Made by a program: the position numbers and the translations under genes. Positions 4,250-20,321 of a stretch of 20,321 bases of DNA are shown one piece after another (the first letter of the stretch is position 1; each line of letters starts with the position of its first letter). The DNA comes from a virus, in IMG/VR virus record IMGVR_UViG_3300037245_002917, positions 1 to 20,321 of that record. One strand, given 5' to 3'. Below the pieces are notes generated by a model. The model was not told where the DNA came from. It searched no databases and saw only the letters and a list, made by a program, of their open reading frames with translations.

Positions 4250-5203
4250 TCACGTAGTGATATTATTGAACAAATAAGCCGTCGCAACATTAATCAATTC
4301 CTCATCGGTATATTGACGGGCTCGAATAACATTACCGCGAGTCCTGTCTTCACGATACGATTCCATCACAACGGCAACCGGGCTATCTTCGTCCCACCGG
4401 AACGTCCTGCCGATACACGGCATTTTAATATTATTCTCTGAATTGGTCACGCACAGCATCGCATATTCATTATCCCACAACCGCGCCATACTGGCAGTCT
4501 GTCCCTTTTTGGCCGTATTATACAGGCCCCTACCGATAAGCACCCGATCCACACCGAACGCCTCTGCAAGAAGCATAGCGCTCAGCTCACCCTTGACAAC
4601 CTCCGGATACGTGTATTTGATCCGGTCGATAATCTGAGCATTCAGTCCCAGATCAAGAAAAGTGCTCCTACTGATAACAAGCGTATTAGGTTCGATCCCA
4701 ACCGCCTCTTCGATCGCCAGCTTCCCGGTATTCACATCTTTTATCGGAACTGCATTGGTGGCATCGTCCCATTCGTGGGTAACTCCATGAGCGGTAAAAT
4801 TGGAGGCATTGAAAATCATATCGGCAACACGCTTTTCCTGCCGACGTTTAACAACTCCCAGTGCAACTTCCGCGGCCATAGTCTCCACATCGAAATAATG
4901 GCTATACAGTTTCACCTCAACATCGTCGATCGGCTCTTCGTAACCGTTCTCTTCACAAGCATAATTATCCATCTCGAACTCGAAATCATCGCGTGTATAA
5001 GCCCCTCTGGGCTTTCTCTTTGTCTCCGGTATATTCGCCAGCGCCTCCGCTGGTATCACAGGATATTGCCCCGTTTGTCTCCCAACCGGAAACTCTGGCA
5101 ATACCTCCATACCGATAAAAGTATTCTGATCGTCGAAAAACTCCAAGGCCACTTCCGCCAGGTCCGGCCTTCCTATCGTTGTTCCACTCGCTGGTCTAGG
5201 CAT
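4250..5203 (-). CDS. Major capsid protein
   Basis: A 317-residue protein from ATG 5203 (AAGGAG about 9 nt upstream). Features typical of HK97-fold major capsid proteins are present. The N-terminal arm has FIGMEVLPEFPVGRQTGQYPV. An E-loop-like stretch reads KRKPRGAYTRDDFEFEMDNYACEENG. A helical segment follows (VETMAAEVALGVVKRRQEKRVADMIF). The C-terminal axial domain has IGRTFRWDEDSPVAVV and the ending TDEELINVATAYLFNNI. It follows protease/scaffold and decoration genes exactly as in lambda (C-Nu3-D-E). It has a short leader with a long hairpin upstream and a strong terminator downstream. I cannot tell whether it belongs to the lambda gpE family or a neighbouring family. Confidence 0.85.
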   Translation of the reverse strand: MPRPASGTTIGRPDLAEVALEFFDDQNTFIGMEVLPEFPVGRQTGQYPVIPAEALANIPETKRKPRGAYTRDDFEFEMDNYACEENGYEEPIDDVEVKLYSHYFDVETMAAEVALGVVKRRQEKRVADMIFNASNFTAHGVTHEWDDATNAVPIKDVNTGKLAIEEAVGIEPNTLVISRSTFLDLGLNAQIIDRIKYTYPEVVKGELSAMLLAEAFGVDRVLIGRGLYNTAKKGQTASMARLWDNEYAMLCVTNSENNIKMPCIGRTFRWDEDSPVAVVMESYREDRTRGNVIRARQYTDEELINVATAYLFNNITT

Positions 5204-9545: not shown

Positions 9546-9785
9546 TTATCTAAGTGGTTGATGAGTCTGGAACTTACGGCCACACGAACTTTTTTTACAA
9601 AAATAATACCGTATTTTCACATTTCCCCTGGTTGGCGTTCCATATTGCTCGTATTCGCTAGCCCCACACCACGGACATTTAAGCGGCGGCGGCAGGTATA
9701 TCACCCCCGTTTTGCGACGTGACCTGGCCCGCTTAGGTTGCTGGCCATCCAGCTCCGGCAAATCATCCAGCAATCCATTACTCAT
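9546..9785 (-). CDS. Small Zn-ribbon protein coupled to the large terminase
   Basis: A 79-residue protein whose ATG overlaps the terminase stop by four bases (ATGA). After a basic linker (QQPKRARSRRKTG) it carries a four-Cys zinc ribbon: CPWCG at about residues 38-42, and FCKKSSCGRKF at about 67-77. This resembles Ogr/Delta-type or transposase-type ribbons. It may bind DNA or assist packaging; no enzyme motif is present. Its first residues (LLDDLPELDG) repeat the last residues of the terminase because of a DNA duplication. Confidence 0.7.
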   Translation of the reverse strand: MSNGLLDDLPELDGQQPKRARSRRKTGVIYLPPPLKCPWCGASEYEQYGTPTRGNVKIRYYFCKKSSCGRKFQTHQPLR

Positions 9786-9817
9786 CCGCCAAGCTCCGGT
9801 AAACCATCCAGCAATTT
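9745..9817. repeat. Imperfect direct repeat spanning the terminase/Zn-ribbon junction
   Basis: Two 32-bp copies (9745-9776 and 9786-9817, offset 41 bp, about 27 of 32 identical) encode LLDDLPELDG at the start of the Zn-ribbon protein and LLDGLPELGG at the end of the terminase. The two copies are read in different frames relative to each other. Confidence 0.8.
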
Positions 9818-11881
9818 CGATCCCGTCGCCCTCGGCCGCCTGCGTTTTTTACGTTGCCCCCGCTTCTTCAGTCCCACCCAATCATTACGATTCCACCACC
9901 ATGCCGCCGCCGCATACACAGTAGCATCAAACTCATGGTTTCCTTTTCGTTTCACAACCCACCGAAAACTAACCCTGCCTCTCGTATCGGTAGTCTCCAC
10001 CCGCTCTTCGGCCGTCAGATGTTCGATAAACCACATCTCCGTATCACAATGCATCGATATATATAATTCGGGCGGCTCAGGCGGATCATTGAAATCCCAT
10101 TCGATATCGAACCGGGTATGCAGCTCTTCTTTGAAACTCGCCGTATGAATCTGCACATAAGACCGCCATTGGCTCTGCGGCAATTTGCGCCCTCTCGAAT
10201 CCGTCTTAATATACCCTTGCGATACCGGCCCATATTGCCGCGGCGTATCCGTAGCCAGCCCCTGGCACGCATAGCAATTCGCATGTCCCCTGCAAAAATC
10301 TTCGACTTCTGTAGTGCGATATCTGCTATCGATATACAGTGCCCCCACGGTTATCCGTCGATCCCCACCAGCGACCGGATAACTCATCGACGCCACAGCC
10401 TCCAGCGAGTTAATCGCCTCTGGCAGCACCCCATATTCGATCAAATGCCGGGCCCCATCTTCTCTCCAGACCCACACACAAAAATATATTTCCTTCTGTT
10501 GGACATCCGCCCCAGCCGTTATATACTCATATCCATCCGGCACAATCAGCGATTCCATATCCCGCCAGATATGTTTTACAAGTTTACTCTCATCGACCTT
10601 GAGCGTCCGCACCTTCCACGGCAGCGCCAGACAGCCATTATAGAACGTCTGTCGTTTCGACAGATCGTCCCCAATCTCCAGCCACTGTTTGGCAAGCTGC
10701 CCCCAACTTACCCACGGCACATACAACCTGGAGAAATGTATCCCCCACCGCCGATTCTTTACCCCACCGCCAACCAATTCATATTGCTTAGTCTCCCCTC
10801 CCGGCAACTCAATTTCCCACCGATCTCTAACATTGTCATCCTCGCGCACGCGGGGATCCATCTTCTCTTTTCTTCCCTTCGTGCCTTCCCCCGCACTGTC
10901 ATCCTCGCGCACGCGGGGATCCATCTTCTCTTCCTTTGCGCCTTTGCGCCTTTGCGCCTTTGCGGGATAATCTTTCTTTATTTCTCTCTGACCTCTGATC
11001 TCAATCTTCTGCCCTTTCGTCACCCTCTTATAATTCCCCAACATCCACCGCTTCTGACCATCCCGTATCTTCCCTTTGCACCCGATACACTCATACCACG
11101 TATTGCCCCTGGCCTCCTCCGGGCTCACACTCTTCCTCGTATCGGTCACCTTCGGCCATTCCACTTGTTTCCACACCAACTTCTGATAATGCCCGCACAG
11201 CGGACAAGGCAGATATATGTACCCCTGATCGGACAGTGCAAATTGTTTCAATATCGAATCCCCGGCCATCACCGGCGTCGACAGATCGATTATCTTATAC
11301 CTACCCTGCCCCATCACCCGCTCACCCGCCAGCTCGAGTGCTCCCGCCTCTTCATTTCGAGCACCTGTCCACTTCGCCGTCTCATCACGAAACACCAGGG
11401 GCGCCGATTTAGTGCCAAGCTGTCCCACACTTTTAGATCCTGCCAATGTCAGATTCCCGCCGAAAAAATCTATATCGAGTACAGGTCGCTTGACAGAGAC
11501 AGGAACTTTCTCACCCAGCGATTTACAACTATCCATCACCTTCTGAATCCGTTTACGCGATACGTACCTCGCATTAAAATCCGTATCGAGAAAGTAAAGT
11601 ATATTCTTCGGATTACAATCGATTATATAGCAGATAATAATCTGAATCGGCAGCGATTTCCCCGACTGCGCCGCCCCCACAATCACTATCTCATCGATAT
11701 CCCGATCCTCAAACGCCCTGAATATCTCAAGATGCCACGGTGTGATATCCGGATTGTATGGCCCCACCAGATCAACCCCCATATCTTTGGTAAGCACAAC
11801 ATTCCCCCGCGCCCACTCCTCGATCCCCACCCTCGGCCGCCACCGCCACGCCTCTCGCTCTCTATCCGTCCATGTTACCAT
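9782..11881 (-). CDS. Terminase large subunit, lambda GpA family
   Basis: A 699-residue protein from ATG 11881 (AGGA 8-11 nt upstream). The ATPase domain has Walker A GAAQSGKS (residues 69-76) and Walker B PLVFRDE (161-167). A GpA-type zinc site follows: CPLC (226-229) and CIGC (265-268). The second half has RLYVPWVSW (about 395) and nuclease-type strands ITAGADVQQKEIYFCVW and TVGALYIDSRYR, then a basic tail. It cuts concatemers and pumps DNA into the head through the portal. Residues ~300-350 are repeat-encoded (YPAKAQRRKG and two MDPRVREDD motifs) and sit in the linker before the nuclease domain, keeping the frame open. The family's usual length is about 600-650. Confidence 0.93.
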   Translation of the reverse strand: MVTWTDREREAWRWRPRVGIEEWARGNVVLTKDMGVDLVGPYNPDITPWHLEIFRAFEDRDIDEIVIVGAAQSGKSLPIQIIICYIIDCNPKNILYFLDTDFNARYVSRKRIQKVMDSCKSLGEKVPVSVKRPVLDIDFFGGNLTLAGSKSVGQLGTKSAPLVFRDETAKWTGARNEEAGALELAGERVMGQGRYKIIDLSTPVMAGDSILKQFALSDQGYIYLPCPLCGHYQKLVWKQVEWPKVTDTRKSVSPEEARGNTWYECIGCKGKIRDGQKRWMLGNYKRVTKGQKIEIRGQREIKKDYPAKAQRRKGAKEEKMDPRVREDDSAGEGTKGRKEKMDPRVREDDNVRDRWEIELPGGETKQYELVGGGVKNRRWGIHFSRLYVPWVSWGQLAKQWLEIGDDLSKRQTFYNGCLALPWKVRTLKVDESKLVKHIWRDMESLIVPDGYEYITAGADVQQKEIYFCVWVWREDGARHLIEYGVLPEAINSLEAVASMSYPVAGGDRRITVGALYIDSRYRTTEVEDFCRGHANCYACQGLATDTPRQYGPVSQGYIKTDSRGRKLPQSQWRSYVQIHTASFKEELHTRFDIEWDFNDPPEPPELYISMHCDTEMWFIEHLTAEERVETTDTRGRVSFRWVVKRKGNHEFDATVYAAAAWWWNRNDWVGLKKRGQRKKRRRPRATGSKLLDGLPELGG
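10833..10985. repeat. In-frame R1-R1-R3 insertion inside the terminase gene
   Basis: Two R1 copies (10834-10870, 10897-10932; stem CTCGCG...GCGGGG) and one R3 block (10932-10985; four CTTTGCGCC-type units then GGGATAATCTTTCTTTATT) lie within the terminase coding sequence. About 150 nt is added without a stop, encoding MDPRVREDD twice and YPAKAQRRKG. Confidence 0.88.
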
Positions 11882-12077: not shown

Positions 12078-12278
12078 CGCCAACAATCGACGAAAGGAAG
12101 TGCTGAATGTTATTTACGCGGCTATCCGCCGCCCGTCGATCTCCAATTGTCATCCTCGCGAAAGCGGGGATCCATCTTCTCTGCGCCTTTTCTTCCTTTG
12201 CGCCTTTGCGCCTTTGCGGGATAATCTTTTTCTCTTATTAGGCTCTGCCCCTTGGCAGTTGGCTGTGGCCCTTGCCAC
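12078..12278. repeat. Composite repeat cassette R4-R1-R3-R2-R2
   Basis: R4 at about 12078-12140 (ATCGACG 12086-12092; GCGGC-TATCC-GCCGC). R1 at 12148-12184 (CTCGC-GAAA-GCGGG). R3 at 12183-12232 (tandem CTTTGCGCC). R2 hairpins at 12240-12258 (CTGCC-CCTT-GGCAG) and 12260-12278 (GTGGC-CCTT-GCCAC). Together with the palindrome at 12288-12318 this fills the gap between the 58-aa and 71-aa genes. Confidence 0.88.
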
Positions 12279-14056: not shown

Positions 14057-14272
14057 TCGCCGACAATCGACGAAAGGAAGTCCTGGACTTATTTATCGCG
14101 GCTATCCGCCGCCCCGTCGATCTCCAATTGTCATCCTCGCGCACGCGGGGATCCATCTTCTCTTCTCTGCGCCTTTTCTTCCTTAGCGCCTTTGCGGGAA
14201 AATCTTTCTTCATTTCTTTTTGCCACTTATCAGGCTGTGGCCCTTGCCACTTAGGCTCTGCCCCTTGGCAGT
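14057..14272. repeat. Composite repeat cassette R4-R1-R3-R2-R2
   Basis: R4 at 14057-14130 (ATCGACG 14066-14072 pairs CGTCGAT 14115-14121; AAGTCCTGGACTT palindrome; GCGGC/GCCGC). R1 at 14129-14165. R3 at 14168-14215. R2 at 14232-14251 (GTGGC/GCCAC) and 14252-14272 (CTGCC/GGCAG). The order is the same as at 12.1-12.3 kb. The last R2 overlaps the stop of the Gp37 gene. No gene is seen in 13959-14250. Confidence 0.9.
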
Positions 14273-15213
14273 TCGTGGTACCGCCTCCCCCCAATCAAAT
14301 CATTATCTTTTCGTTTCCGCACCCCACCCCACCCCTTAAAGAAGAACGGCACCCCTGCATGTTTGCACTGATCATGCAATTTGCGTACCCATTCCTCTTT
14401 CATCGGCCTGGCCCCCGGCCCGGTTTCTCCGCCACATATAACCCAGTCTAATTTTATATCATCCCAACCACAATAACCACGATTTACTACCCCACCATCC
14501 CCATATTCATGCGCCCCACATTTCGGGCACACCCACCAGCCCTCATCATTCGGATCGTCCACCTCCCCATGATCATCCCATCCAGGTTCCCCCTTATACA
14601 TCTTTTTCAATCCACCTTCCGGCGTATCGTTTTCGACAAACCCCAGCCATCCGCAACCACACTGTATATCCGCTAGATACCCCCACAAATCTATCTCCCC
14701 CAACATCGGCTCAATCGAAACGAACCGCACCGCTACATTCATCTGCGCAAGTATTTTTATCTTTCCAACTTCCGATTGATCACAAACCGATACCCCCATC
14801 CAAACATTCTCCGGCCACTTCATAATGGCATGCGCCTTTTGAAACTTCACCGCCCGCCACGGTCGCTTGGTTAATAGTATGAACGTATGTTGCGGATGCG
14901 CAGCAAAAAACCCCTTGAGCATAAGCAACCACTCCCACGGTACCGACTCATGGAACGGATCGCTCATCGAGCACACGAATATCCGCTTAGGTTGTTTCCA
15001 CTTACTCACTTTCTCCAGCACCTGGGGCCGCCATAGTGTCCGTCCACTCCACTTTCCATCGGTTATAACCTGCTGATAATCATCCTTCATCTTTGGATTA
15101 CCTGCCAGCCTAACCGCCATCCGCTCGGCATAGCAGTTTTCGCACCCCAGGCTACATTTCGTACACCCGATTATCGGGTTAACAGTCTTATCACACCATC
15201 CGATATTCGACAT
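14251..15213 (-). CDS. Phage Gp37/Gp68 family protein (DUF5131), radical-SAM-like
   Basis: A 320-residue protein from ATG 15213 with GGAGAT about 7 nt upstream. It matches the Gp37/Gp68 phage family: the start IGWCDKTVNPIIGCTKCSLGCENCYAERMA holds the Cx3Cx2C cluster (Cys20, 24, 27) typical of radical-SAM-like 4Fe-4S sites. Family segments follow: FVCSMSDPFHESVP, FILLTKRPWRA, VWMGVSVCDQ, RFVSIEPMLGEIDL, VICGGETGPGARPM and GVPFFFKGWGG. A zinc-binding insert with two Cys pairs (CGCGW; CPKCG) lies at about 186-250. The reaction is not established for the family. It sits next to the C5-methyltransferase, so a nucleic-acid modification role is plausible. The last residues (LPRGRA) derive from an R2 repeat. 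Confidence 0.9.
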   Translation of the reverse strand: MSNIGWCDKTVNPIIGCTKCSLGCENCYAERMAVRLAGNPKMKDDYQQVITDGKWSGRTLWRPQVLEKVSKWKQPKRIFVCSMSDPFHESVPWEWLLMLKGFFAAHPQHTFILLTKRPWRAVKFQKAHAIMKWPENVWMGVSVCDQSEVGKIKILAQMNVAVRFVSIEPMLGEIDLWGYLADIQCGCGWLGFVENDTPEGGLKKMYKGEPGWDDHGEVDDPNDEGWWVCPKCGAHEYGDGGVVNRGYCGWDDIKLDWVICGGETGPGARPMKEEWVRKLHDQCKHAGVPFFFKGWGGVRKRKDNDLIGGRRYHELPRGRA

Positions 15214-15227
15214 AATTCATCTCCAAT

Positions 15228-15339
15228 TGTCATCCTCAACTACTCTGTCATCCCCGACTCGATCGGGGATCCATCTTATCTTCTCTGCGCCTTTTCTACC
15301 TTAGCGCCTTTGCGCCTTTGCGGGAAAATCTTTCTTCAT
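15228..15339. repeat. Partial R1, full R1 and R3
   Basis: A truncated TGTCATCCTCAACTACTC (15228-15244) is followed by a full R1 (15245-15281; CCCCGA...TCGGGG) and an R3 block (15285-15339). This fills the gap between the methyltransferase and Gp37 genes. The SD of the Gp37 gene lies directly at its left end. Confidence 0.88.
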
Positions 15340-16403
15340 TTCATTCCCATCAACAATTCAAACGCCTCCCTCGCACAGCTCGGCACTACGGCGTTTCCAA
15401 GATTTCTAAGTCTGTCCACCCTAAAGGGTACCCCATCAGCCACTCGACCCACGTCGGGTTCAACAACCCAGCTTGAGATTCCGCCAGGCTCATCCCGTTT
15501 TTCCGCCCTCTCTGAGCCTGTCTTTTCCCTTTGCCGCTGCGTGAATCCCTTGCCGTTACCGTCGGCCATGTCTGTACCGCCAACCCCAGTGGCTTGCCCC
15601 CCTGTTTGTACTGAGCCGTTCTGGTCCCTTCCGATGCCCTCGGCGTCGGCAACATTTTCGCATGCGGTCCCCGCCCCTCCATCTCCAATACCTTTCCCGT
15701 CAATGTCCGGCCCGAGTTCGGGCCCACTCTGCCCTTGTCCGGCTTGCCGCAAAACCCCGCCGCATCCATCACCGTCGCGGTAGGCCACATCTGCCCCCGC
15801 GCCGCCCCCACCAGCGTTTGCCCCCGCTTGCCATCCGGTTTGTTCGAGCCCTGCGTCGCCGCTGCTGCCGAAGGGGTAGGCAACGCACCACCACCGATCT
15901 CTCTTATGCGGAGCTCCCACCTCCTGAGCCGACAACATTCTCCATCTCGCATCATACCCGCAATCGGCCAGTTCCCCGAGCACAACCGCAAGTGCTCCTT
16001 TCGTGATGCCCCGCACATTCTCCAGAAACACAATTCGCGGTCTCGCCATGCGAATAATTCGCATCTGTTGAAAGAAGAGTTCTGACTGTTTCCCTTTGAT
16101 CCCGGCTCTCTTTCCTGCAGAGCTGATATCCTGGCACGGAAAACCGCCCGTAACCGCTTGAATTTCTCCACCGGCTGACCACTCAATTTGTGCAAGTTCA
16201 GATTCTCCGAAAGTTCTAATATTACTCCAGACCGGCGCAACATCGAGATTACCTCTCGCCATCTCTTTCGCGAGAACCCCGACGGCGTATGGGTCGATCT
16301 CACAATAGCAAACGGTCCGGCACCACGGGCCCAGGGCAAGCGAGATCCCCCCGATTCCTGAGAACAAATCGAGCGTCCGCAATCTGTCGGCACCATCAAC
16401 CAT
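15336..16403 (-). CDS. DNA (cytosine-5) methyltransferase
   Basis: A 355-residue C5-methyltransferase. Motif I is DLFSGIGG (12-19), motif IV GGFPCQDIS (86-94, catalytic Cys90), motif VI ENVRG (128-132) and motif VIII APHKRDRWW (164-172). Motif X, RLRNLGNAVVP (331-341), closes the SAM fold. The target-recognition region (~180-310) is a Gly/Ala/Asp-rich, low-complexity segment of the kind common in phage enzymes. It would methylate cytosine in a short site and protect phage DNA from restriction. ATG 16403 is 11 nt from AGGAG; a +1-frame ATG at 16408 is spaced better. The 3' half overlaps a conserved-looking second frame. No partner restriction endonuclease is seen. Confidence 0.93.
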   Translation of the reverse strand: MVDGADRLRTLDLFSGIGGISLALGPWCRTVCYCEIDPYAVGVLAKEMARGNLDVAPVWSNIRTFGESELAQIEWSAGGEIQAVTGGFPCQDISSAGKRAGIKGKQSELFFQQMRIIRMARPRIVFLENVRGITKGALAVVLGELADCGYDARWRMLSAQEVGAPHKRDRWWCVAYPFGSSGDAGLEQTGWQAGANAGGGGAGADVAYRDGDGCGGVLRQAGQGQSGPELGPDIDGKGIGDGGAGTACENVADAEGIGRDQNGSVQTGGQATGVGGTDMADGNGKGFTQRQREKTGSERAEKRDEPGGISSWVVEPDVGRVADGVPFRVDRLRNLGNAVVPSCAREAFELLMGMK

Positions 16404-16583: not shown

Positions 16584-17236
16584 CTACTCTGTCATCCCCG
16601 GCTCGATCGGGGATCCATCTTCTATTTTCGTACCATTGCCTTTTAGTTGGCACCGGCCCTTGCCGGTCAGGCTGTGGCCCTTGCCACCCTCGCCACCAAA
16701 CCGCCTACAGCACAGCTCAACTTCCTCATCGACGATCTTCTCGGCCCCCGGAACATCGATCCGCCCTGCGATCCGCCTGCCCAGCATCTCCATCCCGCTC
16801 TTAACCGCCCCAATCTTCGCAATCGATTTTCGTTCCACTTCCTTCCGATCAACCAGCAATCCCTTCATCCTCTCCGCCCGCATCCGCACCAGCTCGGCCC
16901 TATGTTGCCTCTCATCAGCAGAATATTTCTTCAATCGCCTGTCATCGAGCTGTTGAGCCGCTATCTCTTTCTTCAGCCGATCAACTTCCCACTGTCGCAC
17001 AACCACCAGATCATATTTATTCTGCCCAAGTTTCGGCATCCCTTCAACTAAGGCCCAATGCCTCACCGTCCGCTGAGCAGTACAAAAGTACCTCGCCAGC
17101 CCAGCCGTATCCACAATCAGCGCCCCCGGGCCCAGGCTCGAGCCTGCGCCCCCGACTTTCTTCCCGGTTGCCTTCTTCTTTTTTTTTACGGCGACCTTTT
17201 TCTTCTTAATCTTTTTTTTTTACTCACCATCATCAT
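16584..17236 (-). CDS. Terminase small subunit, Nu1-like (start requires a frameshift at A10)
   Basis: The intact frame (open from 17219) encodes a Lys-rich tail (KKKIKKKKVAVKKKKKATGKK). A Nu1-like winged-helix follows (DTAGLARYFCTAQRTVRHWALVEGMPKLGQNKYDLVVVRQWEVDRL), then a helical region (DERQHRAELVRMRAERMKGLLVDRKEVERKSIAKIG). It binds the packaging site and recruits the large terminase. The only ATG upstream (17236, ATGA overlap with the previous gene) reads MMMVSKKKRLRRKRSP and stops, unless the ribosome or polymerase slips -1 in the A10 run at 17212-17221. A GTG at 17114 would instead give 176 residues lacking the basic tail. The C-terminal ~30 residues (from GKGHS) are R2/R1-encoded. 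Confidence 0.8.
16590..16687. repeat. R1 and two R2 hairpins inside the 3' end of terS
   Basis: R1 16590-16625 (CCCCG...CGGGG). R2 variants at 16652-16667 (ACCGG...CCGGT) and 16670-16687 (GTGGC-CCTT-GCCAC). They encode the last ~30 residues of the small terminase frame. Confidence 0.85.
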
Positions 17237-17923: not shown

Positions 17924-18862
17924 TCATCCAAACAACCCCTTTTCTTTTGGAGCCAGCGATTCCCCATTAATCAACAAAACCTCCGGCGCTTCAGTCTTTT
18001 TGTATCCCCTTGCGCCCCCGTTCGCTATTCCCTTCATCCTATATACCTTCCTTTTAGTCCACCGGCTTGAAGGATAAAGCCCATCCACCCGCTCATCATC
18101 ATAATAGCTAACGATCACCCTCGCCTTTTTGAACCGTCCCAACAACTCCGCCAACCGATTATGATCATCCTGGCCAAATTCATGTTCATATTTCCCGCTT
18201 CCACTTCCACCCGTCCGCGCCCCACCCATCATATACGGTGGATCCACATACATCGCCAGCATGGGACTATCTTCCACCTTCTCGATCAACTCGAATCCAT
18301 CCATATTCATAATATTCACGCGACGCAATCTTTCATGCCAAGCTCTTATCGAATCAACCGCGCTGGCAAACCTAACTCCCCCTGATCCCCCACCAGGTGT
18401 CCATCGCTTGCTAGGTTGATGATTTTGTCGCTTCGTTCCAGACGTTCCGTTCCTGCCAATCCAAGATACGACAAAGTATATATACGCCCTTTCGATATGT
18501 TCATCTGCCACATCTTTAATCGTTTTCGGCGGCTCGATATCCCTGCCCAGGAATTCCACCTTACATTCCTTAAATATATCTTCTGAACACAAAGTCCGAT
18601 ACAGCCTATTGTAGAGTTCCTCCCACCTATCCGATGCAATCACCCTGGCCAGGTTAATCAAATCCCCATGCAGATCGTTCACGATATCATGCGAACACGG
18701 TGGTTTCGCCAGCAGCACCGCCATCGACCCACAAAACGGCTCTACATACATCGAGTGCGCCCCCAGCTCCGAAACAATAGTAGGCGCCAACGTCCGCTTC
18801 CCCCCAAACCACGCCACCAGCGACCCAATCTTCATTTCCTGTTTCTCAATCACATCTTTCAA
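17924..18862 (-). CDS. DNA N6-adenine methyltransferase, D12 class
   Basis: A 312-residue enzyme. The N-terminal AWFGGKRTLAPTIV (17-30) is the D12-class 'GGK' segment. VEPFCGSMAVL (40-50) is the SAM-binding motif I, with D63 shortly after. The catalytic DPPY is at 207-210. The middle (GTKRQNHQPSKRWTPGGGSGGVRF) is a Gly/basic target-recognition part. It would methylate adenine in a short site, presumably for protection from host restriction. I chose TTG 18862, which overlaps the upstream stop in TTGA and has AAGGTG ~5 nt upstream. ATG 18835 (MKIGSL) is the alternative. Confidence 0.92.
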   Translation of the reverse strand: MKDVIEKQEMKIGSLVAWFGGKRTLAPTIVSELGAHSMYVEPFCGSMAVLLAKPPCSHDIVNDLHGDLINLARVIASDRWEELYNRLYRTLCSEDIFKECKVEFLGRDIEPPKTIKDVADEHIERAYIYFVVSWIGRNGTSGTKRQNHQPSKRWTPGGGSGGVRFASAVDSIRAWHERLRRVNIMNMDGFELIEKVEDSPMLAMYVDPPYMMGGARTGGSGSGKYEHEFGQDDHNRLAELLGRFKKARVIVSYYDDERVDGLYPSSRWTKRKVYRMKGIANGGARGYKKTEAPEVLLINGESLAPKEKGLFG

Positions 18863-20142: not shown

Positions 20143-20321
20143 CTAACCATCAACTTTTACTCGCATAATATGATCGCGCGCCTGCGAGTTCAAAGGTACC
20201 CGCCCGCGCGCCCGAAAATTCAGTTTCCAGCCCACCACCCCCATTTTCAGCCCACTCACCCAAACGGCGGCAAGCCCCAAAAAAACCTCCGCACACAAAA
20301 AACCCGCGCCATACTTCGACC
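20143..20321 (-). CDS. Partial ORF at the right edge
   Basis: An open frame enters from the right edge and ends at TAG 20143-20145, overlapping the head of the next ORF region. It gives 58 residues, including FLGLAAVWVSGLKMGVVGW and a basic tail LNFRARGRVPLNSQARDHIM. No family is recognised. The GC-rich sequence makes open frames common by chance, so it may not be a gene. Confidence 0.35.
   Translation of the reverse strand, partial: SKYGAGFLCAEVFLGLAAVWVSGLKMGVVGWKLNFRARGRVPLNSQARDHIMRVKVDG

Follow-up and report, generated by a model that had tools for sequence, protein, structure and literature searches.

In-frame insertion of a composite of CGTC-1-type REPs into the large terminase gene of a phage

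Introduction

The phage contig analysed here, a virus record of 20,321 nucleotides (20.3 kb; "the window"), carries within its large terminase gene a block of short repeats of the type that fills the spaces between its genes. What kind of event placed them there, is the gene still functional, and are the repeats adapted to coding sequence or simply tolerated by it? An initial annotation recognised two copies of one palindrome (R1) and one copy of a second repeat (R3) in the gene, likened them to the palindromic elements of Rickettsia (RPEs), and suggested that R1 may be adapted to coding insertion.

REPs of the CGTC-1 class have a CGTC, TGTC or CCTC tag, an 8-bp stem starting with AT, a 4-nt loop and a CCA tail (Di Nocera et al. 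2013, PMC3733652). Members include Neisseria dRS3 and Rickettsia conorii RPE-6, and among RPEs the CGTC type has been assigned to RPE-6 and RPE-4 alone. In the same study, CGTC REPs mostly form head-to-head dimers, which is a tendency and not a requirement, with clusters in Neisseria and Wolbachia; in-frame clusters encoding 43–82 aa are known in Thauera and R. conorii, and no dedicated transposase was found. RPEs (RPE-1 and others; Ogata et al. 2000) are described in a review (PMC2229807) as palindromic elements lying in frame in conserved genes, and the same review reports an RPE-bearing guanylate kinase whose product, when tested, tolerated the insert.

Results

Structure and position of the insert

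Besides the two R1 copies and the R3 unit of the initial annotation, the insert holds a degenerate R3-like unit as the spacer between the R1 copies (Table 1); a string from this spacer, GGCACGAAGGGAA, is found again in an R3-like element of a related contig, G001, at position 18124. Read on the + strand, the 27-bp R1 is TGTC-ATCCTCGC-GCAC-GCGGGGAT-CCA, with 8 of 8 stem pairs if G-T is counted, and its tag, AT-starting 8-bp stem, 4-nt loop and CCA tail are all those of the CGTC-1 class. The likeness of R1 to RPE-6 is one of structural class only, and we found no Rickettsia link for the repeats of the window. R1 is also much shorter than the RPEs described in the review cited above, which measure 105–146 bp (PMC2229807). 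Nonetheless, since R1 has the CGTC-1 structure, RPE-6 belongs to the same family and in-frame clusters have been published, the comparison with RPEs holds in kind.

Table 1. Coordinates of the insert, of related repeats and of the genes that carry them. Positions refer to the window unless a contig is named.
Feature	Position	Strand	Remarks
Large terminase subunit gene (GpA type)	9782-11881	-	699 aa, bears the insert; no loss of ATPase, zinc or nuclease motifs
Composite in-frame insert R3-R1-(R3-like)-R1	10833-10985	-	153 bp = 51 codons; ...EIKKDYPAKAQRRKGAKEEKMDPRVREDDSAGEGTKGRKEKMDPRVREDDN...
R1 copy 1, CGTC-1-type REP	10834-10860	+ (tag-to-tail)	TGTC tag, 8-bp stem, GCAC loop, CCA tail
Spacer between R1 copies, degenerate R3-like unit (GGCACGAAGGGAAGAAAAGAGAAG)	10861-10896	-	13-bp match, G001 18124
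R1 copy 2, CGTC-1-type REP	10897-10923	+	identical to copy 1
R3 unit (AGAAATAAAGAAAGATTATCCCGCAAAGGCGCAAAGGCGC...)	~10925-10985	-	matches R3 at window 12983, 14217, 15342; G001 5940, 8028
R3-R1 composite between genes	12148-12229	.	90% identical to insert over 82 bp
R3-R1 composite between genes	14129-14217	.	91% identical to insert
R3 adjoining R1 variant (5-nt loop), between genes	15246-15342	.	80% identical over 98 bp
Small terminase subunit (phrog_57)	16584-17114 (G001 4269-4841)	-	REP at 16590-16617
Mu-type portals with in-frame CGTC-1 REP (VIPAxAGIQ)	L143:1378-2913, L160:9245-11968, L190:2410-3996

The terminase protein matches phrog_15 (E = 3e-107), PF05876 (GpA ATPase; residues 39–282, E = 7e-44) and PF20454 (GpA nuclease; residues 380–662, E = 5e-43). 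Residues D166, C226, C229, C265, D459, D518 and D652, from the ATPase, zinc and nuclease parts, are invariant in an alignment of 56 sequences, and with both domains and the conserved catalytic residues the protein is of the GpA type. As first annotated, the insert lies in the linker, after the C-x2-C zinc motif (C265/C268) and before the nuclease domain. An AlphaFold2 model based on 56 sequences predicts the insert residues to be disordered: residues 305–374 are the sole long internal segment with pLDDT below 50, and the flanking domains mostly score 80–96. Foldseek searches with the model returned terminase folds, those of T4 gp17 and HK97 TerL.

The ORF is unbroken despite the in-frame codons, which agree with the roughly 50 added residues originally estimated; the gene stayed open, as the length gained is divisible by three and the frame is free of stops. 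Taken whole, the insert is open in only 1 of its 3 sense frames, while R1 alone is open in two of three frames on the terminase's strand and in all three on the other. It is scarcely credible that the insert is skipped in translation, by bypassing as in T4 gene 60, or cut from the RNA. Palindromes can form hairpins, and the two R1 copies can fold together on the gene strand (z -2.5), but a single R1 hairpin is weak there (about -4 kcal/mol, not better than shuffles), bypassing needs neither a multiple-of-three length nor an open frame, and on inspection we saw no hallmarks of introns or inteins.

Selection on the terminase gene

A relative of the window, IMGVR_UViG_3300037246_003066 (G001), is a contig of 35.8 kb that was assembled separately; it is 94% identical to the window and collinear with it over most of its own first 20.7 kb. 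Its terminase gene carries an identical insert in an ORF that is likewise open, which makes an assembly artefact very unlikely. Between the two contigs dN/dS is 0.21 for the whole terminase gene, 0.18 for the part preceding the insert and, with 13 nonsynonymous versus 15 synonymous codons, 0.25 for the nuclease half. Values of about 0.2 indicate that the gene is intact and under purifying selection, and most plausibly the protein was constrained while both phage copies already had the insert.

These results bear on a reading in which the terminase is dead and the repeats piled up in a decaying provirus after function was lost. The intergenic spaces are dense with repeats, as this would predict, but the ORF is unbroken, the residues of the ATPase, zinc and nuclease parts are conserved, dN/dS between two insert-bearing phages is low, and the portal, protease and capsid genes are open, which leaves it with very little credence. 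The initial annotation had named inactivity of the gene as one outcome that would overturn its interpretation, and these findings speak against it.

The two contigs differ in several other respects. In the ATPase region of the terminase gene (window 11383–11582) about 200 bp differ by about 31%, the remainder being far more alike, and the gene is thus a mosaic. In the DUF5131 gene (window 14251–15213), 210 bp (70 codons) near 14674 are missing from G001. Window position 20321 and G001 position 1 are the same starting base, which could mark a genome end or a common assembly break.

Absence of the insert from homologues

Alignment with GpA homologues bore out the view of the block as an insertion, more than 100 compared proteins being without it. 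It is missing in 32 of 32 homologues from phages (7) and Planctomycetota (25), in 76 of 77 aligned viral-contig homologues, and in all four of the closest outside homologues looked at (28–32% identical overall, at most 35% in the ATPase part). The one exception among the 77, L135, has an unrelated stretch of 29 residues at the insert site. All compared homologues are distant (22–35% identical), and the insert boundaries are therefore approximate; no close relative without the insert was found. The canonical linker at this site has about 4 residues, MLxxGxW or similar, which the window exceeds by about 70 residues, 51 of them repeat-derived. Some 8–20 of the extra residues, depending on the alignment, lie upstream of R3 (QKIEIRGQ...) and match no known repeat. 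No REP was found at the loci retrieved for other terminases (110 loci).

Copies of the repeats in the two contigs

BLAST of the insert against the window gave matches at 17 places including itself, the best non-self matches (E = 2e-30, 4e-26 and 4e-20) being far above chance. The composite at 12148–12229 is likely the kind of source unit from which the insert came. In the composite at 14129–14217, the R3-bearing segment of 64 bp (about 14162–14225), between R2 and R1, is missing from G001 and was gained or lost recently. Copies that fit the CGTC-1 pattern number 12 in the window and 9 in G001, all with an 8-bp stem, 4-nt loop, CCA tail and at most one stem mismatch, and R1 also occurs in variants whose loop is 5 or 6 nt long. 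The tag is TGTC in 12 of 12 window copies, both terminase copies included, and in G001 TGTC in 8 and CGTC in one, counts that are conditional on a scan pattern that demanded such a tag.

In total we counted 17 REPs in the window and 24 in G001, and 41 of 41 have one orientation relative to genes, a uniformity that could stem from strand-specific insertion or from composite units having spread. As the copies are related by descent and amplification, they do not stand for 41 independent events. Gene interiors, from ORFs called mechanically, make up about 71% of the window, yet only two of its 17 REPs lie inside an established gene (P ~7e-7 for a number this low if the copies are treated as independent). 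This points to coding insertions being selected against, with a single case tolerated.

The same counts run against the suggestion that R1 is adapted to coding insertion, or that R1 and R3 are specialised for it, as proposed for RPE-1, with the open frame kept by selection. The R1 frame used in the terminase is indeed open, and RPE-6 belongs to the same superfamily (PMC3733652). However, an open frame needs no adaptation when one in three sense frames is open, and in neighbouring R3-R1 composites between one and three sense frames contain stops. This part of the initial annotation is not supported by the analysis, and we consider such specialisation very improbable.

A second terminase gene is also affected. 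In the small subunit, R2 and an R1 variant together encode the C-terminal ~33 residues, the last of which differ in G001. This repeat-encoded tail fits tolerance at protein ends and linkers.

Host, carriers and REPs in other viral contigs

The exact R1 pattern had no match in genome contigs, and a looser pattern gave single matches in a Phycisphaerae MAG and in Povalibacter; among 392 Planctomycetota genomes two had a REP, one copy each. With single copies only, none of these looks like the host. A host call from tblastn with portal and capsid was likewise rejected, the matches being ~25% identical and spread over many hosts. A plasmid search gave no match, the R3 pattern was found among viral contigs in G001 only, and no transposase was seen by Pfam among ten large ORFs of G001.

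Scanning IMG/VR with the general CGTC-1 pattern yielded at least 80 loci with at least 148 REPs. In at least 27 REP-ORF pairs the REP lay inside an ORF of at least 150 aa, in a scan where ORFs were mechanical and some contigs may contain host DNA. Among the matches listed, three REP-internal ORFs are Mu-type portals with the REP at the same aligned position (Table 1). The portals of L143 and L160 are 68% identical, and their REPs may share one event; that of L190 is only 28% identical to L143. Reference phages are without the VIPAxAGIQ motif, yet PA1/KOR has VDQAGAGIAQ at that position, so that independence of the portal insertions is likely but not proven. Like the terminase insert, the portal REPs are of the CGTC-1 class and lie in frame in a variable region of a head gene; they differ from it in being single, in their opposite reading orientation, in having no R3 and in occurring in other phages. 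In L214 (1579–5559), a tail-fibre-J-like ORF has an in-frame REP near its N-terminus (aa 97).

Recurrence at one portal site, the repeat-encoded tail of the small terminase, and an identical insert in two phages whose terminase genes differ outside it are the observations that would favour an adaptive role, in which a lengthened, charged linker alters motor assembly, DNA gripping or ATPase-nuclease coupling and was selected. We nevertheless rejected the identity of the insert as a sign of selection. The gene is mosaic, and the insert and the next ~250 bp show almost no differences between window and G001; with the adjoining sequence so nearly free of change, the identity of the insert is put down to recombination or recent common ancestry. 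The segment is, moreover, predicted to be disordered, and the many homologues compared manage without it. Adaptation thus appears improbable.

Discussion

As a whole, the locus is very probably best explained as a tolerated, near-neutral insertion of a REP composite into a flexible terminase linker. Repeats that probably spread between genes would have supplied a composite, R3 plus R1 followed by a second R3-like/R1 unit, of the type filling the phage's intergenic spaces, which would then have entered the large terminase gene. The landing site would be a non-conserved linker from the zinc/ATPase part to the nuclease part, where translation of the repeats would add about 51 charged and disordered residues, an addition tolerated by the motor. 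We infer that the terminase is made with the insert and works, and that the effect of the insert is near neutral; the repeats presumably came by the mechanism that spreads CGTC REPs.

The kind of event is already known in bacteria; its setting in a phage packaging gene is new, and the literature searched yielded no relevant case of a REP within a phage gene. As with bacterial CGTC-1 REPs, the copies described here are mostly intergenic and sometimes in frame within genes, and as with RPEs a palindromic insertion in frame leaves a conserved gene open. In contrast, CGTC-1 REPs have been described from bacteria, mainly as head-to-head dimers, whereas here they occur on a phage contig and in a packaging motor gene, in a single orientation and paired with R3.

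In-frame REP insertion, described for bacterial chromosomes, is thereby extended to an essential phage motor gene, and purifying selection still acts on the gene that carries the insert. A tentative and rather unlikely extension is that linker sites in phage head and packaging proteins, such as the ATPase-nuclease linker of GpA and a C-terminal site in Mu-type portals, repeatedly accept in-frame REPs, so that phages would carry REPs between bacterial genomes and sample the linkers they encode. REP arrays on phages could help to explain how repeats with no known dedicated transposase are transferred to distant bacteria.
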